This document shows, piece by piece, positions 2,807 to 23,140 of a stretch of 31,459 nucleotides of DNA (position 1 is its first letter; the number at the start of each line of letters is the position of its first letter). A program made the translations under genes and the position numbers. Source of the stretch: a virus; the IMG/VR virus record IMGVR_UViG_3300029309_000198, positions 1 to 31,459 of that record; one strand, 5' to 3'. Below the pieces are notes generated by a model. The model saw nothing but the letters and a program-made list of their open reading frames with translations, searched no databases and had not been told where the DNA came from.

Positions 2807-3042
2807 TGGCCGAGGGGTACGGCTGGGTGTCGCTCGATGAGATACAAGGTCTTATGGCCTCGATGTCTCTTGAGCTTGAAGAAACCCCTGACAAAACGGA
2901 CGAGGTTTTGTACGCCATCATGGGCGACATGTTCAACCTCGACATGCTTGTTGAGGGCGACATGCTCACCATCACGGGGCACAAGTACGACATCTGGTCG
3001 TGGCTCACCTTCTCCATGTGGTATTCGGTTGACGCGTCATGA
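2803..3042 (+). CDS. Hypothetical acidic protein, 79 residues
   Basis: The start at 2803 overlaps the previous stop as ATGA and lies behind GAGGACA (2791-2797), which also supports a second in-frame ATG at 2806. The product is acidic and methionine-rich, with an amphipathic helix near residues 10-25, an acidic middle and a tryptophan-rich C-terminal part. The hydrophobic content is scattered, so no membrane span is predicted. No family is recognised. It overlaps the helicase start by four bases (3039-3042), which suggests coordinated synthesis with the helicase. Confidence 0.65.
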   Translation: MMAEGYGWVSLDEIQGLMASMSLELEETPDKTDEVLYAIMGDMFNLDMLVEGDMLTITGHKYDIWSWLTFSMWYSVDAS

Positions 3043-4475
3043 AGCTCCACGACTGGGTGCTCGACGGGTTCCTTACCGAGTACCAGAACGAAGGGTGGGA
3101 CTTCATGTTCCAGAAGGACGCAATCTTGTGGTGGGCCTGCGGTTCCGGTAAGACGCTAGCTGCATTGTTATGGGCCTCGTCACAATGTGAGTCAGGCAAG
3201 ACGCTGGTCATTACACGCGCCCCTGCTCGACGCCAGTGGCAGCGCGAGGTGTCGCACTACACCGATGGCCGCGCTGTCGTCGGTGAAGGCAGAACTCCTA
3301 TGCCGATGGAGGAGATGCGGGACGCTGACATCTTGATCCTTTCATGGGAGACGATGCCCTACTGGATAGACGCCATCCGCGAGTGGCGCAGACTAGAAGG
3401 CAAGCTCTTTGTAATCTGGGACGAGCTTCATAAGGGCAAGTCTTGGAAGCGAAAGAAGAAGTACCTCGCACGAAACGGCGCGGTCAAGTACCAGTCGGCA
3501 GAGAATCGAGCAGCCGCAGCCGCTGAGATCTCGGGCATGGCATACCGGCGTCTCGGCCTGACCGCCACACTCATCCGCGATAGAGTCGCAGACCTATGGG
3601 CACAGGCGGATTTGGTATCGCCGAAGTTCTTTGGTTCTAACTGGGATTTCGTGCATCGCTACTGCGACGCGAAGCCCGGAGCTTTCGGAGGTCTGGATGT
3701 CTCGGGCAGGTCCAACGAGGCGGAGCTAAAAGAGAAACTAGCAAGAATAGTCCACGTCGTTTCTCGTGAGGAGATGGCGCGGAACCTGCCGCCCAAGCGG
3801 AGACAGCTAGTGTATCTGTCTAAGAGTGACCAGATGAGACCCGCAGGGTTTGCGGCAGACATGAAGCGTGCAGCCAAGAACGGAGCGCAAGCCCTGTTTG
3901 AGATGAAGCTGCTGGAAGCCGCGAGTCGGAAGCGAAACTGGATTGCGGAGACGGCTGCCGATGCCCTCGACGCAGGACAAAAGGTTTGCGTTCTAACTGG
4001 ACGCAGGAAGGACTGTGAGGCCCTCGCGAAGCTCATCACGAAGAAGGCCAAGGCCAACCCAGTCTGGACCGGACACGGCGGCGACAGCACCCAATACAGG
4101 GATTCTATTGTAAAAGAGTACGCCGACCACGATGGTGCGGGAGCTTTCGTTGGAACCACCGATGCATTCGGCGAAGCTATTGATGGATTGCAGAACACAG
4201 ACCTAGTGATATTCGGCCTTCTACCTTGGACACCGGGCCAAGTGACGCAAGCTGAAGGGCGATTCAGTCGTCACGGGTCGAAGCGTTCGGTACTAATAAT
4301 GTACACAGTAGCGCAGGGCACGGTAGACGAGCACGTTGCTGACATCCTTTTGACAAAGCTCCAAGCTGTCGAGGCTGTACTAGATGATAAGGAGTCTGGG
4401 GAGGTGGCGAGCACGCTCGCTGGCGACCAAGATGAGGACGCGATCATAGCTTCAATCTTGAGCTTGTGTTCTTGA
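3039..4475 (+). CDS. SNF2-like superfamily 2 helicase
   Basis: The 478-residue protein has the superfamily 2 motifs in order. Walker A is CGSGKT at 34-39, with K38 the nucleotide-binding lysine. VIWDELH near 125-131 is motif II, written DELH instead of the usual DEAH. LTATLIRD near 174-181 is motif III, and QAEGRFSRHG at 404-413 is motif VI with R408 and R411. The compact two-lobe layout, with no accessory domain, fits phage SNF2-type ATPases thought to unwind or remodel DNA during replication or recombination. It starts at an ATGA overlap with the previous gene. Its stop codon lies inside the first unit of the 11-bp repeat array at 4472-4515. Confidence 0.9.
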   Translation: MKLHDWVLDGFLTEYQNEGWDFMFQKDAILWWACGSGKTLAALLWASSQCESGKTLVITRAPARRQWQREVSHYTDGRAVVGEGRTPMPMEEMRDADILILSWETMPYWIDAIREWRRLEGKLFVIWDELHKGKSWKRKKKYLARNGAVKYQSAENRAAAAAEISGMAYRRLGLTATLIRDRVADLWAQADLVSPKFFGSNWDFVHRYCDAKPGAFGGLDVSGRSNEAELKEKLARIVHVVSREEMARNLPPKRRQLVYLSKSDQMRPAGFAADMKRAAKNGAQALFEMKLLEAASRKRNWIAETAADALDAGQKVCVLTGRRKDCEALAKLITKKAKANPVWTGHGGDSTQYRDSIVKEYADHDGAGAFVGTTDAFGEAIDGLQNTDLVIFGLLPWTPGQVTQAEGRFSRHGSKRSVLIMYTVAQGTVDEHVADILLTKLQAVEAVLDDKESGEVASTLAGDQDEDAIIASILSLCS

Positions 4476-4570: not shown

Positions 4571-4900
4571 ATGGGATACGACGCACACATAAACGCCTAC
4601 GCTGCCGTCATCATCAACGTGGTAATGGAGGCGATGGGAGATGCGGAAGGCGACTATGACGGTGGCGGCGTTACCGTTGTGGATGCGACCGCAAAAATCG
4701 CTGACCTTTATCACGACGGCGTGTACTTCCTCGCGGAGGAGCTAGCGTATGAGGTAGAGCACGAACAGTATCGGCACTGGCACAGGCAACCTCGGAGTGC
4801 TTGGCCGCTGTCTCCTTACGTCACCTATATGCCGATCCCTGATTTCTATGTTCGCACATCAGACCTTCAACTCATGTCTTACGTCTTGGATGCGACATGA
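4571..4900 (+). CDS. Hypothetical acidic protein, 109 residues
   Basis: I chose ATG 4571 because GGAGGACA (4561-4568) lies at ideal distance and the longer frame would start inside the repeat array. The protein is acidic, with an alanine/valine-rich helix near residues 10-25, a glycine-rich turn (GGGV) near 32, and histidine and tyrosine residues in the middle. No cysteine motif or membrane span is visible and I recognise no family. It is the first gene after the 11-bp repeats and putative promoter, and its stop overlaps the nuclease start as ATGA (4897-4900), so it probably leads the nuclease-Sak4-SSB unit. Confidence 0.7.
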   Translation: MGYDAHINAYAAVIINVVMEAMGDAEGDYDGGGVTVVDATAKIADLYHDGVYFLAEELAYEVEHEQYRHWHRQPRSAWPLSPYVTYMPIPDFYVRTSDLQLMSYVLDAT

Positions 4901-5718
4901 AGTATATCGACGCAGGCCCATCGCCCGCTGGCTGGAGCAGGCTCTCGAACGTGCTGAAGTGCCCGCGCTATTACGCGCTGAACAGAGAGCACGACCGCAC
5001 GGCTTCGGACGCGCTGGTGCGTGGCTCGCTGATGCACATCGCGCTCGCCCATCACTATGCAGCCATCGGCGCAGAGCAGCACGGCGCCCGAGTCGATTAC
5101 CTCAGCCCCGAGGCTGCGGTCGAGAGGTGTGTCGCCGAGGCGAACTGTGAGCTTCACGACAAGTGGAAGGACAATGTGATTGGCGTGTACCACCAGTACG
5201 CGATGATGTACCCAACCCCAAGCTGGCGCATCCAAGCGGTCGAAGAGATTGTCTCGACCAAGGTCCGCGATGACGTGCGAGATGTCTCGTATGATTACAC
5301 GGCCCGCATCGACCTCATTGTAGCTCACCACGGCAAGCACTACTTCGTGGACCACAAGACGAGCTTCATGATTCTACGCAAGACGTACAACAAGTACACC
5401 TTGTCGGGTCAGTTTCTCGGACAGCAGATGATGGGGCGCGAGATGTTCGGTGACGACTTCGGGGGCGTCATCCTGAACCTCATCGGATGGGATGATAAGA
5501 AGCCTGTTTCTTCGTTTAAAAGGAAAGTTCTGCCTTATGCAGAAAAGTCTGTTGCGCTCTTTCCTGATACAGTTATAATGGGTGAGAGGATGATAGCCGA
5601 CTTCAGCGGGAGGGATGCCTTCCACTGGCCCGGTGCTCATCGGGAGACAGCGTGCCAAACAACCTATGGCCCCTGTAGTTTTTTTGAGACCTGTAAAAGA
5701 GGAGGACACTATGAGTAA
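4897..5718 (+). CDS. PD-(D/E)XK nuclease with apparent Fe-S cluster (RecB/Cas4-like)
   Basis: The 273-residue protein has the RecB-family nuclease pattern: RGSLMH near 42-47 (motif I with H47), a glutamate pair at 116-117, D139 in ARIDLIV, D152-H-K154 (the D/E-x-K triad) and a following Gln-rich helix. Cysteines C22, C253, C260 and C266, one near the N-terminus and three near the C-terminus, match the 4Fe-4S arrangement of Cas4 and AddB-type nucleases. The family degrades or trims DNA ends. Next to a Sak4-like ATPase and an SSB-like protein, it likely works as the exonuclease of a phage recombination module. CRISPR adaptation is unlikely, since no array or cas1/cas2 is present. It overlaps the next gene by 8 bases. 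Confidence 0.85.
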   Translation: MKYIDAGPSPAGWSRLSNVLKCPRYYALNREHDRTASDALVRGSLMHIALAHHYAAIGAEQHGARVDYLSPEAAVERCVAEANCELHDKWKDNVIGVYHQYAMMYPTPSWRIQAVEEIVSTKVRDDVRDVSYDYTARIDLIVAHHGKHYFVDHKTSFMILRKTYNKYTLSGQFLGQQMMGREMFGDDFGGVILNLIGWDDKKPVSSFKRKVLPYAEKSVALFPDTVIMGERMIADFSGRDAFHWPGAHRETACQTTYGPCSFFETCKRGGHYE

Positions 5719-6631
5719 GCTACCGTTTGTATTCGGCATCGTGTATGCCGCGCCCAAGAAGGGCAAGACGCTCAACCTGATCAAAGCTGACCCCAGCGCG
5801 TTGATCATCACGCCGGTCGGAGGAACATCCTGCGCCGAGTACCTTGGGGTGACGCCCGAGACTTGGCTGGTCAAGCCCGACACTCGCGTGGACAAGATCA
5901 TCGAGGTCATCAACCGGGCGTCCAAGTCCAAGAAGTTCCGCACGATTATCGTGGATGACTTCAGCCTTATCGCTGATTCAGAGCTTCACCACATCCAGAC
6001 CAACCCGCGCAACGCTGGGTTCAAGGCCTTCGATGTTTTGAACAAGACCATGTACAAGCTGAGGGATGCGGCACGAAACGCCGAATGCCATGTATTTCTG
6101 GTTATGCACGAGACGCCTCCTCGCGAGGTGACCCGTGACAACAAGACCGTGTTCATCCCCGGGCACCCGTCCATCACAGGATGGAAGCTCCCCGAGAAGA
6201 TTCCGGCTATGGCTGACTTCGTGGTCCGCGTCAAGTACGACGCCAAGGCCGTCAGCAACTGGCCATATGTCTACCAAGCCGCGCCGACACCTGATTACAT
6301 TACAGGTAGCCGCTTGGCTATGATGCCTGCTTACTCCCCAACTAACATCAGGGAGATCATGCTTGCCACGGGTTACGACCTGCCTCGACCCAAGGGCATG
6401 GAGTGGATGGACGATGTGGCGGAGGCTGTTTGTCAAGAGCTTGTAAAGGCGGAGGCCAAAGACAAGCGATCAGTTAAGAAGTGGTTGTCCAGCGATGGCC
6501 CTGCTTTGGCGGAGACATACAAGGACAAAGACCCAAGACACGTCCGCTGGGCAATCAGCGACGGTATCGATCGGGCGGTACTTCGCCGCCACAAAACCAA
6601 CCTGTTGACCGATTTTATCGCCAACTTTTAA
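5711..6631 (+). CDS. Sak4-like RecA-fold ATPase (single-strand annealing/recombination)
   Basis: ATG 5711 follows AGAGGAGGACACT, the extended binding site seen in several genes here. The 306-residue protein opens with a beta strand and Walker A (APKKGKT near 14-20). Walker B is IIVDD at 79-83, and VFLVMHET near 135 is a likely sensor strand. This is the layout of phage RecA-like nucleotide-binding proteins of the Sak4 type, which bind single-stranded DNA and promote annealing with an SSB partner. The SSB-like gene directly downstream strengthens the call. The C-terminal 70 residues are lysine-rich and less familiar. Walker A is unusual in having two lysines before GKT. Confidence 0.8.
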   Translation: MSKLPFVFGIVYAAPKKGKTLNLIKADPSALIITPVGGTSCAEYLGVTPETWLVKPDTRVDKIIEVINRASKSKKFRTIIVDDFSLIADSELHHIQTNPRNAGFKAFDVLNKTMYKLRDAARNAECHVFLVMHETPPREVTRDNKTVFIPGHPSITGWKLPEKIPAMADFVVRVKYDAKAVSNWPYVYQAAPTPDYITGSRLAMMPAYSPTNIREIMLATGYDLPRPKGMEWMDDVAEAVCQELVKAEAKDKRSVKKWLSSDGPALAETYKDKDPRHVRWAISDGIDRAVLRRHKTNLLTDFIANF

Positions 6632-6648
6632 TAGAGAGGGAGAGTAAC

Positions 6649-7116
6649 ATGGCTGTTATTTTTAGAATAAACACGGATGACATGAACAGCGGCAAGCTGG
6701 AAGAGCGGGGCATCTACAAGGTGGAGGTCAAGAGCCTCAAGCCTGAGGTCAGCAAGAGCGGCAAGGACATGGTGAATGTTGCAGCCGAAGTTGTTGAGGG
6801 TGAGCACAGGGGCAAGATGGTGTACAAGCGCATCATGATTCCCACCCCTGAGATGAAGTGGCCGCGTTTTCGCTGGCTAGAGATGTTGGGGTCGTTCGGT
6901 CATTCGGTAGAAGAGGCCAAGGCGATCATGGATGACGGTGTGGACGACGAGCAGCACATCCTCGGACAGCAGGGATGGATCGAGTTTACCCCTGCTGTTG
7001 GCGAAGGCTCGTTCTCGGAGACGGAGTGGGTGACCGAGAAAGAAGCCAAGTCTCGCGCGGCTATCGTAGCCGAGGCAGCCGCCGCTCGCGCCGACATGGA
7101 AGACGTGCCCTTTTAA
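6649..7116 (+). CDS. SSB-like single-stranded DNA-binding protein
   Basis: I set the start at ATG 6649, behind GAGAGGGAGAG. The 155-residue product has a beta-rich N-terminal half (YKVEVKSLKPEVSKSGKDM, then VNVAAEVVEG) resembling the OB-like fold of phage DUF669/SSB-type proteins. It ends in an acidic tip, DMEDVPF. An acidic tail finishing in proline-phenylalanine is the protein-interaction tip of bacterial and phage SSBs. It probably coats single-stranded DNA and recruits replication and recombination partners such as the adjacent Sak4-like ATPase. It is the last gene before the 205-base gap, so it probably ends this unit. Confidence 0.75.
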   Translation: MAVIFRINTDDMNSGKLEERGIYKVEVKSLKPEVSKSGKDMVNVAAEVVEGEHRGKMVYKRIMIPTPEMKWPRFRWLEMLGSFGHSVEEAKAIMDDGVDDEQHILGQQGWIEFTPAVGEGSFSETEWVTEKEAKSRAAIVAEAAAARADMEDVPF

Positions 7117-8046: not shown

Positions 8047-8109
8047 CAGGGCGCCGACTTCTTTGTGGTTCATTTTCATCGCCTCAACATATTAACAAGA
8101 GGGATACTT

Positions 8110-10572
8110 GTGGGATTTAACAGAGCAAAATGCAGCAGGTGCCCATTGCGTAAGTATTGGCAGGCCGAGGGCAGGTGGGAGAGAGTGGACTTTCTTCACA
8201 ACGAGTCTGATGTTTTGATCTTGGGCGATGCACCCTCAAAGCAATCCTCCGCTATGGGCAGAGCGTGGGCGGATACCCACGGCGTAGAGATGAAAGATGC
8301 GCTGGAGTCTGCTCGGGTCAAACCTCACAATGTAGATTACGGATACATTGTAGGCTGTCGCTGGCCAAAAGACGACCCCCGCATGTTTATGCAGATTTTA
8401 AAGCGGAGGAATCGTAAGCTCGCCTCAAAAGGCAGGGCGCTGGAGCTATCCCCGATAGAAGCGTGCCGAGAACATGTAGCAGAAGAGATGGCTAAGTATA
8501 AAACCGTGGTCACCTGCGGGCCTATTGCAACCAAGGCAGTGCTATCCGGCAACCCCTCGCTGGAGGCCGTCAGAGGCGGCCCTACCGTCGTGAACGGCGT
8601 GAAGGTACTACCTACATACCATCCGTCGCAAGTCGCGCTACAGAGGCATCTCCGGCCCGTATTGCACAGCGACATCCAGAAGGCGATCCGTCACCATCGA
8701 GACCGTCTTAGGTGGCCCGAGCCTGTTGTCCGTTACAATCCTCCACCGGATATTGTGCGGGAGTTTTTTGCGGATGCCGCGAAGAATGACTGGTTGTTGT
8801 CCTACGACGTTGAGACTGACGGAATCGACGCGCTCAACGCAGACTTGAGGTGCATAGGCATTGGAACCGAAAGCGAGGTTTTAATGCTGGGATTCCTTAG
8901 TATTGATGGAGTTTCTAGATTCTACTCGCCGGAAGATGAGGAGGTGATTAAAAGCCTGCTCCGCGAGGTGTTTGATGAGCGATCTAAAGTTCGGATTTGT
9001 GGTCACAATGCAGGTTACTTTGATCGGCTTGTTGTGGAGCAGCATCTGGGCGTTACCCCTGCCCCTCTTGTAGATACCCTGCTTCTTCATAAGCTTGGGG
9101 CGTCGGAGTACAGGCATAGCCTCGGCTTTGTCGGGTCGGTGCTGACCGATGTCCCCGCTTGGAAGGCGGACCACGCAGGCGTCACAGCCAAGACAGATGA
9201 AGAGCTTCATGAATACTGCGCCACCGATGTTGCGGTGACCGCCCGCATTGTACAGCCTTTGCTTGAGATGGTGTACGAACGAAAGCAGACGCATCTGATC
9301 GACAAAGACCTGCGGATGCAAAGCTTGTGTGCTGGTATGCGGCGCATGGGGATTAGAATCCATGAGCCTACCCGCTTGGCGCATGAGGAAGCCCAGACTG
9401 AAGCAGCAGTCAAGTGGCGCACGAAGTTACAACGCATCCAGCCAGATATAAATCCCAACTCTCCCGCCCAACTAAGGCATCTGCTTTTTACAAAATGGGC
9501 GCTGCCTCCGCATGAGTACACCCTCTCGGGCGAGCCTTCGACGAGCGTGGCCTCTTTACGCGCTCTCTCGATTAACCCCTTGGCTGACGGTGAACAGCGC
9601 GAGTTCTTGCAGGCGCTCCGCTTCTACCGTAGAGCCGAGAAACTATTGTCTACTTATATAAGAAAGTTCGCGCCGGATGCTGGCGTCGTAAAGGATGGAT
9701 ATGTTTACCCCGACTACAACTCACATGGTACAGTTACCGGGCGGCTCTCTTCGTCTAACCCTAACTTCCAGAACATCCCATTCAACCTACGAGATATGTT
9801 CATCCCTCCAGACGGTTGCGTCTTCGTCGGTGCGGACTATGACCAGCTTGAGCTTCGCTTTGCAGCCGCCTTGGCAAACGCCAAGCACTACCTCGACGCC
9901 TTCGAGAAAAAGCAAATCGACCCCCACAACCTCACCGCAGACCTCATGTTCGGAGAAGTCTTCTGGAATGCGGAAGGCGCGCCGGATACCAAGATGGGCA
10001 AAGGCAAGGGCCAGTTTAAGCAACTGCGTAACTTGGCCAAGACAATCTGCTTTGCCTCGCTATACGGTGCGTCCGCGCCTAAAGTTCATGAGATAATCGG
10101 AAGGGCCGAGGACGACGACGGCAACATGCTGTATGCCCACTACGACCTGCGGCAAATCCGTGTACTGCATCGGCGTTGGAAGTCTAAGGCCCCGGAGTTT
10201 GAGCAGTGGTGGAAGAACACTTTGGACCAGTTCAAGATGGACGGGTACATCGAGGAGGTCGTTTGGATGCGCCGCCGCTACTTTGCCGAAGAGGATTACA
10301 ATGCAATCCTAAACTTCGGGGTGCAGGCAGGCGGGTTTGCGGTTGTCGCCATGTCCATGTTGGAGCTTGTTGAGAAGCACATCCCCTTCGACTTTGACAA
10401 TAAGATTGGCTTAGTAAATCAACTGCACGATGCCGTACTGCTATCGGTGCCTGAGGAGCGTGCCGAGGAGGTTAAGCAGATCGTTGACGAAACCTTGACA
10501 CGCAAGGTGGACGGTCTCGATGTTACCTTCAGTGCGGAAGCAGAGATAGGAATGACTTGGAAAGATGTCTAG
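8110..10572 (+). CDS. DNA polymerase A with N-terminal uracil-DNA-glycosylase-like domain
   Basis: I chose GTG 8110, behind AGAGGGA (8098-8104), giving 820 residues; GTG 8065 lacks such a site. Residues 1-180 match family 4 uracil-DNA glycosylases: Fe-S cysteines C8, C11, C83 and C119, LGDAPS at 38-43 and YHPS at 170-173. A 3'-5' exonuclease follows with D233/E235, HNAGYFD near 299-305 and an ATD segment near 380. The polymerase has TGRLSSSNPNFQNIP near 550-565, motif A with D576, motif B with R640, K644, F648 and Y652, and motif C with H773-D774. E. coli Pol I has glutamate after that aspartate; here it is A775. The residue equivalent to Pol I 762 is phenylalanine. This is the replicative polymerase of the phage. 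Confidence 0.9.
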   Translation: MGFNRAKCSRCPLRKYWQAEGRWERVDFLHNESDVLILGDAPSKQSSAMGRAWADTHGVEMKDALESARVKPHNVDYGYIVGCRWPKDDPRMFMQILKRRNRKLASKGRALELSPIEACREHVAEEMAKYKTVVTCGPIATKAVLSGNPSLEAVRGGPTVVNGVKVLPTYHPSQVALQRHLRPVLHSDIQKAIRHHRDRLRWPEPVVRYNPPPDIVREFFADAAKNDWLLSYDVETDGIDALNADLRCIGIGTESEVLMLGFLSIDGVSRFYSPEDEEVIKSLLREVFDERSKVRICGHNAGYFDRLVVEQHLGVTPAPLVDTLLLHKLGASEYRHSLGFVGSVLTDVPAWKADHAGVTAKTDEELHEYCATDVAVTARIVQPLLEMVYERKQTHLIDKDLRMQSLCAGMRRMGIRIHEPTRLAHEEAQTEAAVKWRTKLQRIQPDINPNSPAQLRHLLFTKWALPPHEYTLSGEPSTSVASLRALSINPLADGEQREFLQALRFYRRAEKLLSTYIRKFAPDAGVVKDGYVYPDYNSHGTVTGRLSSSNPNFQNIPFNLRDMFIPPDGCVFVGADYDQLELRFAAALANAKHYLDAFEKKQIDPHNLTADLMFGEVFWNAEGAPDTKMGKGKGQFKQLRNLAKTICFASLYGASAPKVHEIIGRAEDDDGNMLYAHYDLRQIRVLHRRWKSKAPEFEQWWKNTLDQFKMDGYIEEVVWMRRRYFAEEDYNAILNFGVQAGGFAVVAMSMLELVEKHIPFDFDNKIGLVNQLHDAVLLSVPEERAEEVKQIVDETLTRKVDGLDVTFSAEAEIGMTWKDV

Positions 10573-11267: not shown

Positions 11268-11431
11268 TTTGGGAGAAAGAGGGCAGCCCTTGCCCTAAGT
11301 GCAAAGAGCCTCGGCTTTGGGCCGGTGGCGTTGAAGATGTTGTCGTAGACGCTGGTCCGCAGGGTGGGTGGCGATGCAAAAATAACCACGGAGGCTGGAT
11401 ATGGCCCCATGAGATGAGGGAGAAAAAATGA
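11252..11431 (+). CDS. Zinc-knuckle protein, 59 residues (GTG start)
   Basis: This gene lies almost hidden between its neighbours. GTG 11252 follows AGGGAG (11241-11246) and the frame stays open to TGA 11429-11431. The product has CPKC at residues 14-17, one further cysteine at 42 and histidines at 46 and 53, which could complete a zinc site. Tryptophans flank the second half (GGWR, GGWIWPHE). The stop overlaps the ATPase start as ATGA. Support comes from the ribosome binding site, the overlap junctions at both ends and the cysteine pattern. The function is unknown; nucleic-acid or protein binding is likely. Confidence 0.65.
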   Translation: MAKDLVWEKEGSPCPKCKEPRLWAGGVEDVVVDAGPQGGWRCKNNHGGWIWPHEMREKK

Positions 11432-12414
11432 TTGAGGGAATCTATTCTAACGTAAAAGGTCCAATCGACCTACAACTCGCGTCACCGTATAACCTTGTCT
11501 TCGGACGCAATGGCTCAGGCAAGAGCGCCATCATACACTCGATTGAGCTTGGCGCGTTTGACACCGCCTTCGATGCGGCGGGCAAGGACGTAAAGACAAA
11601 AGGCGCGCTAGAGCTACTTGCCCCGCGAGGCGACGGCCTGTTTTGCCATCTTACTATTGACGGAGAAGAAGTCAGTTGGGGCGACCGCAGCAAGAAGTTT
11701 GACAACGTGGTCGCGATGGCGATGCGTGCGCTTGCGGGAAGCCATGACAATCTAGTAGAGTTTCTGCTAACAAACATTGACGACGACGATCACCCCATCG
11801 CTCTCGACATTCCGGGATGGGACGCCCGCGTCAAACATCACGGTTCGTACCGGAAGGCCCTGCTTGAGATGATGAAGTCAGTTGGTTCGTCTATACGAAG
11901 CCATCAGAAGCGAATGCGAGAGCTTGCCGTGATTCAAGAGTATGTCGAGGACAACGGTCTTGAATCTTACTTCGTGGACAATGAAAAGGATTCTCTTGAA
12001 ACACAGATTTTCAAGTCAAAGCAGTTAAAGGCCAAGATTGACAAGGAGGCCCTCATCTTTGTGAAGGGCGCCTTCGATGTGGTCGAAGCTGGCATCAACC
12101 GCTATCTGCCGGAAGAAATCGGCAGAGCCGAGTTCGTCGAGCTTGGGGGCAAGATTCGCCTCTCCATCAACGGAGATGTTGTTATCCCATCTGGCGTAGA
12201 AACTGTGGCCCTTGCTGTCGCGCTCGCTGGTGCCCTTCTGAGCGGCCCTCGGGCTTTGTTTATCCTGCCTGACCGGGCATATGACCCGAGGACTCTAGGG
12301 TGGCTTATGCGCTCTCTGAGGAATGTGTTGTGTGCAGGTGTCTTCGTTCAGACCACCGTGTTACCCGAAGACTACGATTTCATGTCCCTCGGGTGGGACT
12401 TGGTGAGGGTGTAA
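11428..12414 (+). CDS. Small SMC/Rad50-like ATPase
   Basis: The 328-residue protein begins with strands typical of SMC/Rad50/RecF heads and has Walker A GRNGSGKS at 26-33. Residues about 140-225 are helical and charged, a short coiled-coil arm instead of the long arms of Rad50 or SbcC. PSGVE at 254-258, followed by an alanine-rich helix, is in the place of the ABC signature. LFILPD at 277-282 is the Walker B position, but the next residue is arginine where the catalytic glutamate is expected. It may bind ATP and DNA with weak or no hydrolysis. It is the last gene before the hydrolase and overlaps the zinc-knuckle gene. An SbcC-type nuclease partner is not adjacent. Confidence 0.75.
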   Translation: MIEGIYSNVKGPIDLQLASPYNLVFGRNGSGKSAIIHSIELGAFDTAFDAAGKDVKTKGALELLAPRGDGLFCHLTIDGEEVSWGDRSKKFDNVVAMAMRALAGSHDNLVEFLLTNIDDDDHPIALDIPGWDARVKHHGSYRKALLEMMKSVGSSIRSHQKRMRELAVIQEYVEDNGLESYFVDNEKDSLETQIFKSKQLKAKIDKEALIFVKGAFDVVEAGINRYLPEEIGRAEFVELGGKIRLSINGDVVIPSGVETVALAVALAGALLSGPRALFILPDRAYDPRTLGWLMRSLRNVLCAGVFVQTTVLPEDYDFMSLGWDLVRV

Positions 12415-16751: not shown

Positions 16752-17054
16752 CTATGGTACTGTGTCAAGGGTTTGCCCTGCAAGAGCAGGATTCATTGCG
16801 GTGTTTGCAAGCATCATGGTGTCATGTCCGAGAAGGCCCCCGATGAGAATCAAGCCCAAAACTATGGTTTGAGGATTCTTGAGCGCCGTACCCCAATCAA
16901 ACTGATTTCGTTTTGCGATTTCAATAAGTTGAGCTTCGATGCGGTCTAGTGTCTTACCGGAATGCTTTTGTTCGTTTTGAACGATGGCAAGGGCCTCGCG
17001 GATGCCTCCTACTTGGTCTTCGAGGACTGTGACGCGCTGATCTAAGTTGGACAT
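16752..17054 (-). CDS. Coiled-coil protein with C-terminal membrane span, 100 residues
   Basis: The first 50 residues have heptad spacing typical of a coiled coil (VTVLEDQVGGIREALAIVQ). Residues about 63-80 (PQTIVLGLILIGGLLG) form one hydrophobic span, and a short polar tail follows. This resembles XhlA-like or holin-like phage proteins, which have a coiled coil followed by a membrane helix. It is placed directly after the giant internal-virion gene, sharing a base with that gene's stop as TAATG. It may be a membrane-anchored partner of the ejection apparatus or a lysis protein. The sequence does not distinguish these. Confidence 0.6.
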   Translation of the reverse strand: MSNLDQRVTVLEDQVGGIREALAIVQNEQKHSGKTLDRIEAQLIEIAKRNQFDWGTALKNPQTIVLGLILIGGLLGHDTMMLANTAMNPALAGQTLDTVP

Positions 17055-20000
17055 TATTCCACCATACCTTCTTTCCCCGCCTTCTTGTATTCGCGGGTTA
17101 GCTCTCGTCGATTTGCTTTAGCGGTGTAGCTTGCAGTTTCATTTCCGTGGAAAAGGTAAACTCTTTGTATGTTCATTAACTGACCTAATGCTACTAGTCT
17201 CTTTTCTACTTCAGATTTGTCCAACCCAGCAAGGTAGGCGCGGGTCTCGATTGGCGTTAAAGCGCCTAGATCCGTACCAAATACAACGGAGGCCATAAGA
17301 CGTAAACGGTTGGCCTCTCGCCCAGCCATGTCTAGCAGCCCGGTCTTGATGAGGTTGTCATTAGATCTGATCTTGCCGTTTGTTTTGGTCAAACCTAAAG
17401 AATCGCTCATACCAAACAGGCGGGCAAACTCAAGCTCTGCTCCGGTCAACGGCTTTCCATAGGCTGATTTTGGGGGTACAGGCAGCCCTGCGAGCTTCTT
17501 CAGAGAATCCTCGAACGCGCTTTCCGCCAATGGGTTCATCATGTTGACCATTTCTTCCAGTATAAAGGAAGCGCCTTGTCGTGTGTCAAAATCCACATCG
17601 GTTCTTAGGCCCGCAATGGCTGCCCCCGATACAAGGTGGATCATCTCCGAGTACATGTTTTGAAACTCAATAGACGTAAGCCGCGTAGATACTGTGCGGG
17701 CGTAGTTTACACGTTCGCGGCCTAGCTCCGACATAAGCCGCTGGCCTTCTGGGGTCAGGGTTCCTACGTCAGAAATCATGTAATCCATAAGCCAGTCAGG
17801 GATTTCTAGCTCTGCGGCAATCTGCGCCTGCTCTTCAGGGGTCAGGACTCTAGAGGGATCGACATACTGCTCATGAAATACGACGTTAGCGAATCGGCTC
17901 AAGGCCTCCATCCGCTGCTGCTTGGTGTTGAAAGTAACGTGCCTTTTAGCGTAGTCCATCAAGTCGTCGGACCCGTGAAACAGGGCGTTAAAGTTCTGTA
18001 CGATCGCGTTCTTAGAGAAGACGTAGAAGGCACTAAATCGGGCAATGTACTCCGTCTCAAACTTACCCACACTGGTCTGGTAATCATAGAGCGCCCTAGA
18101 CATCATGTCGGCAGCCTCGTCCCTCGACATCCCCTTGTTGAAGCGGAGATGCGCGTAAAACTGAATACGCTGACGCCGCTGGGCGGCCCGCATTGTGATG
18201 TCCATGATGTCGAAGTATTCGTCTTTAGCTTCTTGGAGAGTGCGTATTGCGGGATTGGTGGCCCTGATGCCTTTCTCGACTAAGCCAATGTCGCGGTCGG
18301 CGGCCTCCCGAAGCTCGACTCCCCAGTCAGTGTGCCGGATACTGTCGTCGATCCCGTCTTCTAAAGCCTCGTTCATCAGCTTGGCAGGGTTTACTTCGAC
18401 AGTCTCACCGTTGGCTTTCTTGTAAACCTTAACCTCATCAGCCCCTTCGAGAACATCGTCGATAAATCGGTTAAAGCTCGCATCAAACAGCGAGGGCAAT
18501 CTCAAGCCCACGTCTCCCGCCGCTTCAGCAGCCTTGCGGGTAGCATCTTGTAGTCTGGTTCCAATGTAAGGGACGTATCCAAGTGACCCGTACATCGAGA
18601 TCACAGCCGCCTCACTTATGCTTAGTTCCGTCGCCATCTGCGAAAAGTCACCCACGGAGTTGTTCATAAAGAATCCGGGGTTAGGCACCAAGAAGCCGCC
18701 AAGGACGTGCCGTTTCCACAGTCTAATCATCTTTTCGGCCCCGCCCGCTATAGCCGCAATCAATGGGTTCTGTGCTGCCGCGTCAGACAAGTTTTCCGTC
18801 AGCTTCTTAGAAATGCCGTCGAGGTTCCTTGAAAACGTCTCAAGTTTAAAGCGGGGGACAATCCGCATATTGCCGTTAGCGTCCATCGAGTGAGCTACTA
18901 GCTCCATGAAATCATCAGAGGCCTGTCGGACGTTGCTGGCCAAATCTTTCTTATACGCCTGTTGAATCAGATTTGGACCAAAACGCAGGTAAGCGTCGGC
19001 AACATCTAGAAACGAAAGCTCCGGCTCCCGCATTGTTAGGTCTTTAATCGGAACATCGTCAAAAGTTCCATCGGGGTTAAGCAGTCGCCCCTTTGTTACG
19101 CCGTCTTCGGTAATAATCTCCATCAACTCTCGCGAAACAACAGAGTTTCCTTCCGTAGCGGCCTTCTCTACCGATGAAAGCGCGCCTCGCTTTTTGCCTG
19201 CGTATTTTGTGGTGTTGGTAACACTGCGATAAAGCTCTACATCGGACTTGAGGACCACCATGTCGCCTTCTTCTAGCGTTTGGCGGAACGGTATTGATTC
19301 TTTGCCTCTCCCGATAAATCGTTCGTAGGCTCGGATTGTGCGGACATTTAGTCCGGCCCCGACTAGATTCGCCATGCGAGACGTGTACACTTCTTCGACA
19401 GCGGCACCCAGCACAGACTTATAAGACAAGGCTAAATCTTTAGTGGGAATGTCTTCAAACTTAGCCGCTACCCGTGGAATCGGCTTGCCCGCTACTCGCG
19501 TTTCACCGATTGCGTCAAAAGCAAGCCGCTGCATCCCTTCGAGAGTCAGGTCTGCCGGTGCGTCTTTGAGTTTCTCTACAAACTTCATCACCGCGCCACC
19601 AGCGGCGAGCGCCTCATCTCTTGTGGCGGCGTCCGATATAAACGCTTTTACAAAGGCTTCAAGAGAAACAGATTGCTGGTTTTTAAAGAACTCTTCGCGG
19701 GCGGCTTTGTTTCTCGGGATGACCCGCGCAATGTTGAGGAAGCCCTCCTTGGCTGTTTCAAAGAACGACGACCCCATGCCGATGTTTCCGCTGACTTCAA
19801 CTCCGGGGCGGAGAATCACCTTTTCGCCAGAGGTTAGATACTGCTTGATTAGGTCATTACGCTGGCCCTCAGGGGCGTAACGCACGATCAGGCTCAAGTC
19901 TTGGCTGCTGGCGCGGGCGAAACGTGCGACCCGCTTGGCAATCCTGTCCACCGATTTTGAGAACCTCGGCCCTAGAAGCGCGACCTTGGTGTTAAAAATC

Positions 20001-23000
20001 GTACCGATTCTGCGTGTGATTAGGTCGCCGACACGCACCCTTGTAGCAGCATACCAAGTCTTAGGGTCAACAAAAGCGTCTACCACCAGCCCAATCTTAA
20101 TCTTGTTCATGGTCGCAGGAGATGCCCAGATGCGCTCCATTAGATCGGGGCGTATGATCGCCTCAAGGAAGTCTTTATCGGACAGAGAGGCCAGATCGTC
20201 CGCCGCCAACTTCCGGAGATCACCAAGGCGCTCTGTGTTTTCTAGAATCTCAGGAACGCCCTCGCCGCCCTCTACGAGCTTCCGAATGGCGTCTCCACCC
20301 TCTTGAGTCTTAGCGATGTCAATCGCCGAGGCCATCTTGTTAAGGGTCTGCAACATAAAAGAAGAGACATCTGCCTGCGCTTCCAGTGCTTTGGGGCCTA
20401 GCTGTACCTCATCGCCCACAGCCTTTCCAACCTTTTCCGCCATGACGATTTCATCTGAAGCCCTTCGTATAGCCGCATCGGCGTCTTGCGCCGCTTGCTG
20501 TAGCTCCTCTATGGCCTTCGTTTGATCTGCCTTCATAGTCCTTAGCGCCGCCGCGTTGATGCCTTTTGCTCCGGCTCCGGCCAGCAAGTCGTCAAACGCT
20601 TTTACACCTTTCGGGGTAAGGCTTGCCCTGACATTGGCAAGCGCGTTTTCAAGAGCCTTTTGTGCCTTGGTTTGCTTCTCAAGGGCGGCGTCGGCACGCT
20701 TTTTTAATCTGGCTTGGTGCTTAGACAGAGGCGTTGATATTTCTTTCTGGTAAAACTTTGCGACCTTATCCCGCAGGGCCTTCTTTGCCGCACGGGCCTC
20801 CTTTGCGGTCTTAAACTTCTTGGTCTGAAGCGTGGCGATTTCATTGCGAAGATTGGTGGCGTCGAGGTCTCTGTTTTTAAAGAACGCCTTGGCGTCATCA
20901 CTGTCGAGGTACGCTTCTAACTTCTTAGACTTGCCTGTTCTAATGTACTTATCAAAGGCATCATCATCGACCATGGCGCGAGCGGTGGCCATTGCAATGT
21001 GATCTGCTTGTGCTTTTTTCTGGAAAGCTGTTGCCCTGTTCAGTGAGGCTTGTAGGCCCCGAAGGTCGTCGCCGGACGCGGCAATGGAGTCAAGCACAGC
21101 CTTGTTGACGGCTTCCGCAGCCTCCGCGTCAGTCTTGGCCGCTTTGGCCTTTTCCATGTTTTCTAGCGCGTTCGCCCTATTCTTTACAGCAGATTCTGCC
21201 CTCCGCTTAATGCTGTGCGTCTCGCGCCTAATCACATCACCAAGGCCTGTTGCTTGGCCGCCATATTTTGTCCCAGCGTCATAAGCCATCTGCTGAAGAA
21301 TCACACGGGCTGTTCCCGATCTGTCTTTTTTTGCCGCATCTTGCAGGGCATCTGCGATGTTAACCGGATTGGCTCTCTGCTCTTCTGTTAGTTCATCAAC
21401 CGCCCTAAGCAGTACATTTTTGCCTTCGTCGAGGCGGTCAATGTGACGCAAGCCAGCTATGCGCTCTGCCGCCTTGAAGCCTTTGCCTACGGCCTTTCCC
21501 GCTTTGCCCGCAAAGGGCAGTCCGTAAAAAACGTCCGGTTCTAGAATCATGACCCCGAACATGGGAACCCCGAACATTATTGCTGCGGCAGTAGGATTTG
21601 CTTCCCCGAAATCATCAAACAGCACCGGCCCTGCTTCCGTTAAGAGCCTGCCCGAGTTGTCGGTGGTAGTTGCGATTTCTTCTACAAGACGATCGCTGTT
21701 CCATATCTGCCCCATGCGCCGGAGAATCCAAGCTCCTCGACCCGTCGCCTCGTCACCAAACTCGCGGACGTAATCTTTGTGTGCGAGGTGATACGCGGCC
21801 CCTACTGCCTCTGTAGGCGCATATCTAAAGATGGAGTCGGTAGCGTTGGCTACCCCTCCGTCTGAAATGTAAGTAGCGGCGATGCCCTTCTCGGCCACCT
21901 GCTGCGCCTCCTCGCCCTTTCTGCCTATAGTTCCGGCGATTTGCCTGTGAGGCAAAAATGGAGCAAGTAGTGGCTTGAGAATCGGAATCGTAGATATAGG
22001 CCCGAGGATGCCCGTGCCGTCGAGGTAGTTTTGAAGCGCCTCGTCATTTCGACGGTAGACAAATGCGGGGGTATTCCTCTCGATGCGGGAGATGTCGCCC
22101 CTTGCGAGGCCTTCAGCTTCCGATCGAATCTCGTCTCGCTCAGATTCGCTAAAACTAAGCAGAGGCTTGTTCTTCGTAAGCTTCTGGATGTAGTGGGCCT
22201 TAGCGGATGTATACGCAACATCAAGGTCAATGCCCTTGGTTTTACCCGTAGGGTCAACAAAAAGGGGCTTGTAAACGTCCATAGCCAGCGCGTCTTTCTG
22301 GGGCCGGTACGCATTGCTAAGGTATTTCTTTCGCTCCGAGGGACTGTCGAAGGCAAACTCTGCAAACTCATCTGTTGTTGGTGTGTCGGTAAGCCCGAGA
22401 GAGACGCTTCTATATAGCTCTGGGTCAGACGCATCAGAGTATAGAACCTGTTCTGCCCCCGGCTTTAGATGGGACGCCTGTTGCTCATCAAAGCCAGTGC
22501 CTGTCATCTTGGCCGCGCCTGCCAACTTGCCCTTAACAATGCCCACAGAGCGGTATTTTGTCTTTCGGTTAGCCGCCTCGTCTTTTAGCCTCTGTTGATC
22601 TGCATTGTAAGCCTCCGCGTCTTTGCGGAAGTTCTTTTTGAGGTCTTCGAGGTCTTTATACTCGCGCCCAAGCTGCGTCATAGACATGACGTTGAGGGCC
22701 TTAAACTCATCCTCGCCTAGCTTTTCATGCTCTTCTTCTCGGAGCGCATGGCCGACGATTGTGCTGAGGCGCTTCTGTCTTACCGAATCGTTAGAGAGCG
22801 TTTGTTCTTTGGCTAGAATCATATCAAGCGCATCTTTTTGCTGAGGAAGCATCGAGATGCCCTTGTCGTAGGCTGCCTGCTTGGCTTCTTGAGACGGCAT
22901 CCGGGTCCGAATAGAGGCTGTCTCGACCCCTGCTGTTCGGCCCTCTGTGGCAGGCTGCATCGCCTTAGCAGCGGCGTTGCCTTTTTCCGCTTGGACTCTG

Positions 23001-23140
23001 ACGTACTCGTTTAGCTGGTCGGGAGTAAACTTGATGAACTCTTCGTAGCTGGGCCTCTCAAAGTTAGGCTTTGTCGGCTCCGGCGGTGCAGCGGGAGCTT
23101 CAGTAACCTTTGGGACTTCTGGAGCAGTCTCTTCCGCCAT
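17054..23140 (-). CDS. Giant internal virion (ejection-type) protein, 2028 residues
   Basis: A single open frame of 2028 residues. The first 25 residues are acidic and proline-rich. Hydrophobic stretches occur near 377-400 (GILGPISTIPILKPLLAPFL) and near 510-550, where Gly-rich segments could insert in membranes. About 620-920 is a long alanine/lysine-rich coiled-coil region. Near 1470-1500 another hydrophobic segment contains VPNPGFFMNN. Near 1680-1710 the segment ALYDYQTSVGKFETEYIARF, followed by FYVFSKNA, matches a feature I recall from large internal proteins of marine phages. This fits a podovirus ejection protein that crosses the envelope with the DNA. No transglycosylase or virion RNA polymerase signature was found. 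The start follows AGGTCATC. Confidence 0.75.
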   Translation of the reverse strand: MAEETAPEVPKVTEAPAAPPEPTKPNFERPSYEEFIKFTPDQLNEYVRVQAEKGNAAAKAMQPATEGRTAGVETASIRTRMPSQEAKQAAYDKGISMLPQQKDALDMILAKEQTLSNDSVRQKRLSTIVGHALREEEHEKLGEDEFKALNVMSMTQLGREYKDLEDLKKNFRKDAEAYNADQQRLKDEAANRKTKYRSVGIVKGKLAGAAKMTGTGFDEQQASHLKPGAEQVLYSDASDPELYRSVSLGLTDTPTTDEFAEFAFDSPSERKKYLSNAYRPQKDALAMDVYKPLFVDPTGKTKGIDLDVAYTSAKAHYIQKLTKNKPLLSFSESERDEIRSEAEGLARGDISRIERNTPAFVYRRNDEALQNYLDGTGILGPISTIPILKPLLAPFLPHRQIAGTIGRKGEEAQQVAEKGIAATYISDGGVANATDSIFRYAPTEAVGAAYHLAHKDYVREFGDEATGRGAWILRRMGQIWNSDRLVEEIATTTDNSGRLLTEAGPVLFDDFGEANPTAAAIMFGVPMFGVMILEPDVFYGLPFAGKAGKAVGKGFKAAERIAGLRHIDRLDEGKNVLLRAVDELTEEQRANPVNIADALQDAAKKDRSGTARVILQQMAYDAGTKYGGQATGLGDVIRRETHSIKRRAESAVKNRANALENMEKAKAAKTDAEAAEAVNKAVLDSIAASGDDLRGLQASLNRATAFQKKAQADHIAMATARAMVDDDAFDKYIRTGKSKKLEAYLDSDDAKAFFKNRDLDATNLRNEIATLQTKKFKTAKEARAAKKALRDKVAKFYQKEISTPLSKHQARLKKRADAALEKQTKAQKALENALANVRASLTPKGVKAFDDLLAGAGAKGINAAALRTMKADQTKAIEELQQAAQDADAAIRRASDEIVMAEKVGKAVGDEVQLGPKALEAQADVSSFMLQTLNKMASAIDIAKTQEGGDAIRKLVEGGEGVPEILENTERLGDLRKLAADDLASLSDKDFLEAIIRPDLMERIWASPATMNKIKIGLVVDAFVDPKTWYAATRVRVGDLITRRIGTIFNTKVALLGPRFSKSVDRIAKRVARFARASSQDLSLIVRYAPEGQRNDLIKQYLTSGEKVILRPGVEVSGNIGMGSSFFETAKEGFLNIARVIPRNKAAREEFFKNQQSVSLEAFVKAFISDAATRDEALAAGGAVMKFVEKLKDAPADLTLEGMQRLAFDAIGETRVAGKPIPRVAAKFEDIPTKDLALSYKSVLGAAVEEVYTSRMANLVGAGLNVRTIRAYERFIGRGKESIPFRQTLEEGDMVVLKSDVELYRSVTNTTKYAGKKRGALSSVEKAATEGNSVVSRELMEIITEDGVTKGRLLNPDGTFDDVPIKDLTMREPELSFLDVADAYLRFGPNLIQQAYKKDLASNVRQASDDFMELVAHSMDANGNMRIVPRFKLETFSRNLDGISKKLTENLSDAAAQNPLIAAIAGGAEKMIRLWKRHVLGGFLVPNPGFFMNNSVGDFSQMATELSISEAAVISMYGSLGYVPYIGTRLQDATRKAAEAAGDVGLRLPSLFDASFNRFIDDVLEGADEVKVYKKANGETVEVNPAKLMNEALEDGIDDSIRHTDWGVELREAADRDIGLVEKGIRATNPAIRTLQEAKDEYFDIMDITMRAAQRRQRIQFYAHLRFNKGMSRDEAADMMSRALYDYQTSVGKFETEYIARFSAFYVFSKNAIVQNFNALFHGSDDLMDYAKRHVTFNTKQQRMEALSRFANVVFHEQYVDPSRVLTPEEQAQIAAELEIPDWLMDYMISDVGTLTPEGQRLMSELGRERVNYARTVSTRLTSIEFQNMYSEMIHLVSGAAIAGLRTDVDFDTRQGASFILEEMVNMMNPLAESAFEDSLKKLAGLPVPPKSAYGKPLTGAELEFARLFGMSDSLGLTKTNGKIRSNDNLIKTGLLDMAGREANRLRLMASVVFGTDLGALTPIETRAYLAGLDKSEVEKRLVALGQLMNIQRVYLFHGNETASYTAKANRRELTREYKKAGKEGMVE

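Follow-up and report, generated by a model that had tools for sequence, protein, structure and literature searches.

A uracil-DNA glycosylase-like domain with altered pocket residues at the N terminus of a phage family A DNA polymerase

Fusion of a uracil-DNA glycosylase (UDG) domain to a family A DNA polymerase is not a new architecture, having been found in SPO1 gp31, PaBG, the Thermus phage phiLo (PDB 9qhs) and others. In gp31 of Bacillus phage SPO1 (NC_011421), an N-terminal UDG-like domain is followed by an exonuclease and a family A polymerase. The DNA polymerase I of Pseudomonas phage PaBG (gp205) and its counterparts in the Lupandier group also combine UDG, exonuclease and polymerase, were modelled on 1ui0 and were assumed to remove uracil (PMC7412058). 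For the phiLo polymerase we found no paper, the literature that we found covering phage isolation and the ligase; a UDG domain goes unmentioned in papers on the polymerases of YerA41, of viral metagenomes and of bacteria. Several PDB entries for UdgX are still titled "Phage SPO1 DNA polymerase-related protein".

Here we describe a polymerase of this type encoded in a viral sequence of 31,459 nucleotides (IMG/VR record IMGVR_UViG_3300029309_000198), the whole of which we call the window. The window polymerase and its clade are a variant of the known fusion in which the fold and the cysteines of the UDG are retained and the uracil pocket is not. The likeness to PaBG and the Lupandier group, which are jumbo phages, is one of architecture.

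A complete gene within a replication module

The polymerase gene (8110..10572, + strand) is complete, starts with GTG and encodes 820 amino acids. As judged from the sequence, AAGAGGG (8097..8103, + strand), six bases 5′ of the GTG, could serve as a ribosome-binding site. Pfam matches to UDG (5e-13, residues 30–179), DNA_pol_A_exo1 (1e-6) and DNA_pol_A (1e-54) all exceed their curated cut-offs, with PF03167 scoring 49.7 bits against a cut-off of 24.3. In the 3′-5′ exonuclease domain (Pfam match to residues 220–388; 8767..9273, + strand), the invariant residues D233, E235, D305 and D373, the last within Y369xxxD373, are intact, as are motifs A, B and C (DYDQLELR, RNLAKTICFASLYG and QLHD) of the family A polymerase domain (Pfam match to residues 434–819; 9409..10566, + strand). 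With a UDG-like part at the N terminus and exonuclease and family A polymerase behind it in one chain, the protein is of the same fusion type as the SPO1, PaBG and phiLo polymerases. Since PHROG 17 spans residues 34–819 in a single match, UDG and polymerase already form one recognised phage protein family.

An earlier note, made from the DNA letters alone, had given the same domain order, and the residues it listed are all present in the translation from 8110: C8, C11, C83, C119, LGDAPS (38–43) and YHPS (170–173). Its list of features passed over the Tyr at the catalytic Asn position and the basic insert between Cys83 and Cys119, both described below. It placed the domain at 8110–8640; the start stands, but the domain reaches approximately residue 197 (8110..8700, + strand). 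It also allowed for a true start downstream of residue 180, which is not supported, as the start at 8110 is common to relatives. Relatives L002, L003, L004 and L005 have ATG at the equivalent codon, which is preceded directly by a stop codon in L005/L006. An in-frame GTG lies upstream at 8065; the start used by relatives nonetheless corresponds to 8110, which rules out a wrong start there.

The genes upstream of the polymerase are a phage replication and recombination module, containing a helicase (3039–4475), a PD-(D/E)XK nuclease (4897–5718), a Sak4-like ATPase (within 5615–6631) and a single-strand-binding-like protein (within 6481–7116), all on the + strand. The window is made up of two converging halves that meet at about 12986, with replication genes on the + strand up to 12986 and virion genes on the − strand from 12983 on. 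The + strand also encodes a DUF932 protein (311–1420), an ORF (2246–2806) that matches an NrdR-type zinc ribbon across 17 residues and, downstream of the polymerase, a small SMC/RecF-like ATPase (11428–12414) with a weak match only (AAA_23, SMC_N). In the virion half, a 2028-amino-acid ORF (17054–23140, − strand) has no Pfam or PHROG match and is possibly a large internal virion protein.

A UDG fold with conserved cysteines and a basic insert

A model of residues 2–210, built on 48 homologous domains, had a mean pLDDT of 94.5. Its best matches among solved structures are family 4 UDGs (1ui1, Z 22.4; 4zbx, 22.3; 1vk2, 22.1), followed by UdgX structures at Z of about 21.5, with TDG far lower at about 13. 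A single solved phage polymerase, that of phiLo, matched the model (9qhs, Z 14.4). The model of the full-length protein has a pTM of 0.87, and its residues 201–819 match Klenow-type polymerases (best Z 34.8). When the full protein was used to search the PDB by sequence, the 60 matches listed contained only polymerases without a UDG-like domain. The predicted model places the N-terminal domain in the UDG superfamily (PF03167) by fold; structure prediction and HMM comparison, by which the earlier note had proposed to check the domain, both point to UDG. Because all 48 aligned homologous domains match Pfam UDG and the model fits family 4 UDG structures at Z of about 22, the UDG-like domain of the window polymerase is real and not a chance match. 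The comparison with SPO1 that the earlier note had drawn was apt: the window polymerase joins a family 4-like UDG fold in cis to a family A replicase, an arrangement comparable to that of gp31.

The cysteines C8 and C11 (CxxC; 8131..8142), C83 (8356..8358) and C119 (8464..8466, all + strand) align with the cysteines of 80 of 80 stand-alone family 4 UDGs, where they are characteristic of the family, and would most likely bind an iron-sulphur cluster that stabilises the fold. On our tree, all four are retained in 49 of 49 fused relatives other than SPO1, each changes once, and SPO1 is the only representative without them. Within the domain, they belong to the most conserved positions. As redox activity has been reported for Fe-S clusters in DNA glycosylases, a family 4 UDG among them (PMC9266487), this conservation might also reflect a switch in which the oxidation state of the cluster alters the affinity of the polymerase for DNA. 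We consider such a switch very unlikely, however, as a purely structural cluster would also give conserved cysteines, and SPO1 and some other fusions do without them.

The third and fourth cysteines are 16 residues apart in the stand-alone enzymes (80 of 80) and 36 apart in the window protein. The additional length lies in an insert specific to the window clade (residues 90–111; 8377..8442, + strand), which has a net charge of +8, a predicted helix at residues 90–106 and an N101-R102 pair that is invariant in the clade; we infer that the insert touches DNA. It lies roughly at the position of the R-loop of UdgX, which is likewise extended in the stretch that runs from the Asn motif to the last Cys. 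Unlike UdgX, the window protein has GDAPS rather than GEQPG as motif A and lacks the covalent R-loop His. The absence of any His from residues 84–118, and hence from the insert, rules out a UdgX-type covalent trap.

Changed residues in the uracil pocket

In UdgX and family 4 enzymes, the nucleophile or water is activated by the Glu in motif A, and the residues that hold uracil are Asn91 and His178 (PMC10359453). Assigning roles from that study, we place Asp40, Tyr79 and His171 of the window protein at the Glu, Asn and His sites. In the alignment, motif A (residues 39–43; 8224..8238, + strand) is GDAPS instead of GE(A/G)PG, with Asp40 for Glu and Ser43 for the last Gly, a departure to which the earlier note had rightly drawn attention. 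The uracil-binding Asn, present in 80 of 80 stand-alone family 4 UDGs, is replaced by Tyr79 (8344..8346, + strand). His171 is retained within motif B (YHPS, residues 170–173; 8617..8628, + strand). Thus, like the stand-alone enzymes (1ui0, 1vk2, 4zbx), the domain has the CxxC...C...C pattern and the motif B His, but it differs from them in its fusion to a polymerase and, in addition to Ser43, at other positions that are invariant among the 80: Phe is Trp53, Gly is Asp55 and Pro is Trp85. Of the features of family 4 in the NCBIfam model TIGR00758, the domain has neither the motif A with its catalytic Glu nor the uracil-binding Asn, and its score of 36.6 bits falls short of the curated cut-off, 125.3.

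Glu, Asn and His occur together in 18 of 28 other phage fusions, in none of the 25 members of the window clade and in 80 of 80 stand-alone cellular family 4 UDGs, a set that was retrieved with two patterns, one containing GEAP and the other CRPPENR, lies nearest to canonical queries and is biased to canonical sequences, such that the motif A Glu, but not Asn or His, was partly selected for. If Asp is counted as Glu, 4 of the 25 clade members have the acid, Asn and His. The pocket also varies within the clade: the acid is lost in L028/L003 and L062, His is lost in 11 of 25, and the Asn site is N, Y or T, with Tyr in 12 of 25. None of the three sites is fixed.

Could the domain nonetheless be a working uracil-DNA glycosylase that starts repair in cis during replication? 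This interpretation has been published for PaBG (PMC7412058), the earlier note entertained it, and the clear family 4 fold, the cysteines, His171 and the motif A acid are all compatible with it, as are the canonical-looking residues of some other fusions, such as phiLo, Manatee and RHph_TM39. Uracil removal is not favoured, because two of the three catalytic residues are changed in the window protein and none is fixed in the clade; together with the complete absence of the full Glu, Asn and His set from the clade and the low score with the family 4 model, this makes a working enzyme quite improbable. Since some enzymes of the UDG superfamily combine altered motifs with a different specificity (PMC8307549), the changed residues are not proof of inactivity. 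A related suggestion, also from the earlier note, is that the domain is non-catalytic but senses uracil, binding it in the template and stalling or marking the polymerase. Such a sensor would have the fold of uracil-binding enzymes in cis with the polymerase, yet the Asn that contacts uracil (PMC10359453) is Tyr in the window protein and in nearly half of the clade, His is lost in others, and the clade has no uracil-handling genes; we regard it as improbable.

Comparison with individual fusions underscores the range of pocket states. The phiLo polymerase, like that of the window, has the four cysteines in its sequence; unlike it, phiLo retains canonical GEAPG, Asn and His and is larger, with an open frame of about 1180 codons. 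SPO1 gp31 differs in the other direction, with no cysteines and with QENPF, Ser and His at the three catalytic sites. UDG-like domains are also found at the C terminus of DnaE in Pseudomonas phage ZY21 (L101 1–2522; LDGPS, Ser and Asn at the three sites) and Rhizobium phage RHph_X66 (L186 1–1056; SDAPG, no cysteine pair). By their sequences, these DnaE fusions are a second, separate fusion, to an unrelated polymerase, also with altered pocket residues. In Caulobacter phage Kuura (L015 4950–8354), UDG-like domain and exonuclease share one gene and the polymerase is in another, two small genes on. Among the cellular genomes scanned for the polymerase, no relative was confirmed.

Selection, gene content and the role of the domain

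Is the domain still under selection? In relatives at 83–98% identity, its dN/dS is mostly about 0.05–0.1, close to the values of the exonuclease and polymerase, although some dS values are saturated; dN/dS is higher in the linker (residues 201–225) than in the domain. On a tree built from exonuclease and polymerase only, a quick tree with several long deep branches whose deep placement is unsure, the motif A acid changes letter at least 12 times, the Asn site changes state 7 times and the His site 3 times. As dN/dS is low while pocket residues change, the domain is constrained, but not for a canonical uracil pocket. The loss of catalytic residues might be expected of a decaying remnant without present function. 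We reject decay, which is scarcely credible given a dN/dS as low as that of the polymerase and exonuclease, the invariance of the cysteines and many structural residues and the presence of the domain in every clade polymerase for which the contig includes the 5′ end. The "inactive DNA-binding remnant" of the earlier note was thus half right: a non-catalytic DNA-binding domain fits better than uracil removal, but "remnant" does not fit purifying selection about equal to that on the polymerase.

Gene content offers no support for a link between the domain and uracil or hydroxymethyluracil metabolism in the window clade. Neither thymidylate synthase, ThyX, dUTPase, dCMP deaminase nor a second UDG was found in the window or the clade's other contigs (31–56 kb and possibly incomplete), nor were base-modification synthesis genes found in these contigs. 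SPO1 differs in having an annotated dUMP hydroxymethylase, which makes hydroxymethyluracil precursors; no such gene was found in the window. ThyX is present in two or three distant relatives, and genes for deaminases and for members of the thymidylate synthase family occur in Manatee Spring phage, Serbin, PMBT14 and SPO1. In four phages (L016, L017, L018 and L192), unlike the window clade, the UDG-PolA gene lies near genes for thymidylate synthase and/or dCMP deaminase, and it is possible that modified thymine is linked to UDG-PolA in these phages.

These observations bear on the possibility that the domain is a glycosylase or base reader of altered specificity, its pocket (Asp40, Trp53, Tyr79, His171) remodelled for a non-uracil template base such as a modified pyrimidine or deaminated purine. 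Strong purifying selection on the domain, the His171 and acid that the window protein retains, a residue set that is new and widespread in the clade (Asp55, Trp85, Lys44), the activity of other UDG families on other bases (PMC8307549) and the residence of some fused relatives in phages with thymidylate-synthase-type modification genes are all consistent with this idea. However, variation at the acid, His and Asn sites inside the clade is unlike one new specificity, and no base-modification synthesis genes were found there. We consider altered specificity unlikely.

The explanation that we favour, with a probability of roughly 60%, is that residues 1 to approximately 197 have been repurposed as a module of the replicase that is stabilised by Fe-S, probably lacks catalytic activity and has a DNA-binding or architectural role. 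A UDG fold derived from family 4 would occupy the N-terminal place held by the 5′ nuclease in bacterial Pol I. Uracil excision has probably been lost through the replacement of Glu by Asp40, of the uracil-binding Asn by Tyr79 and of several surrounding pocket residues. The domain may instead grip the template or single-stranded DNA, aided by the basic helix at residues 90–106, and thereby serve the exonuclease and polymerase as a processivity or architectural module. This repurposed module fits the fold, the conserved cysteines, the pocket loss, the low dN/dS, the basic insert, the lack of uracil-metabolism genes and the similar pocket loss in the DnaE fusions better than its rivals; the retention of His171 and acidic Asp40, and of the acid, Asn and His in a few clade members, argues against it.

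More tentatively, the UDG fold may have become an accessory module of phage replicases that keeps Fe-S but no longer excises bases. It would have joined family A polymerases at their N terminus and DnaE at its C terminus in independent fusions, lost its catalytic pocket repeatedly and taken on a new function, for example as a DNA clamp, a reader of template bases or a redox-tuned element for processivity.

The names given to UDG-polymerase fusions present them as uracil-removing polymerases, and one paper interprets them in this way. Since the window clade retains fold and cysteines under strong selection and drops the uracil pocket, the domain name would mislead for this clade. The fusions can be placed in a natural series: canonical in phiLo and Manatee Spring phage, changed in the pocket but still with the cysteines in the window clade, and without cysteines in SPO1. 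Such a series would allow a direct test of what an Fe-S glycosylase fold does as part of a replicase.
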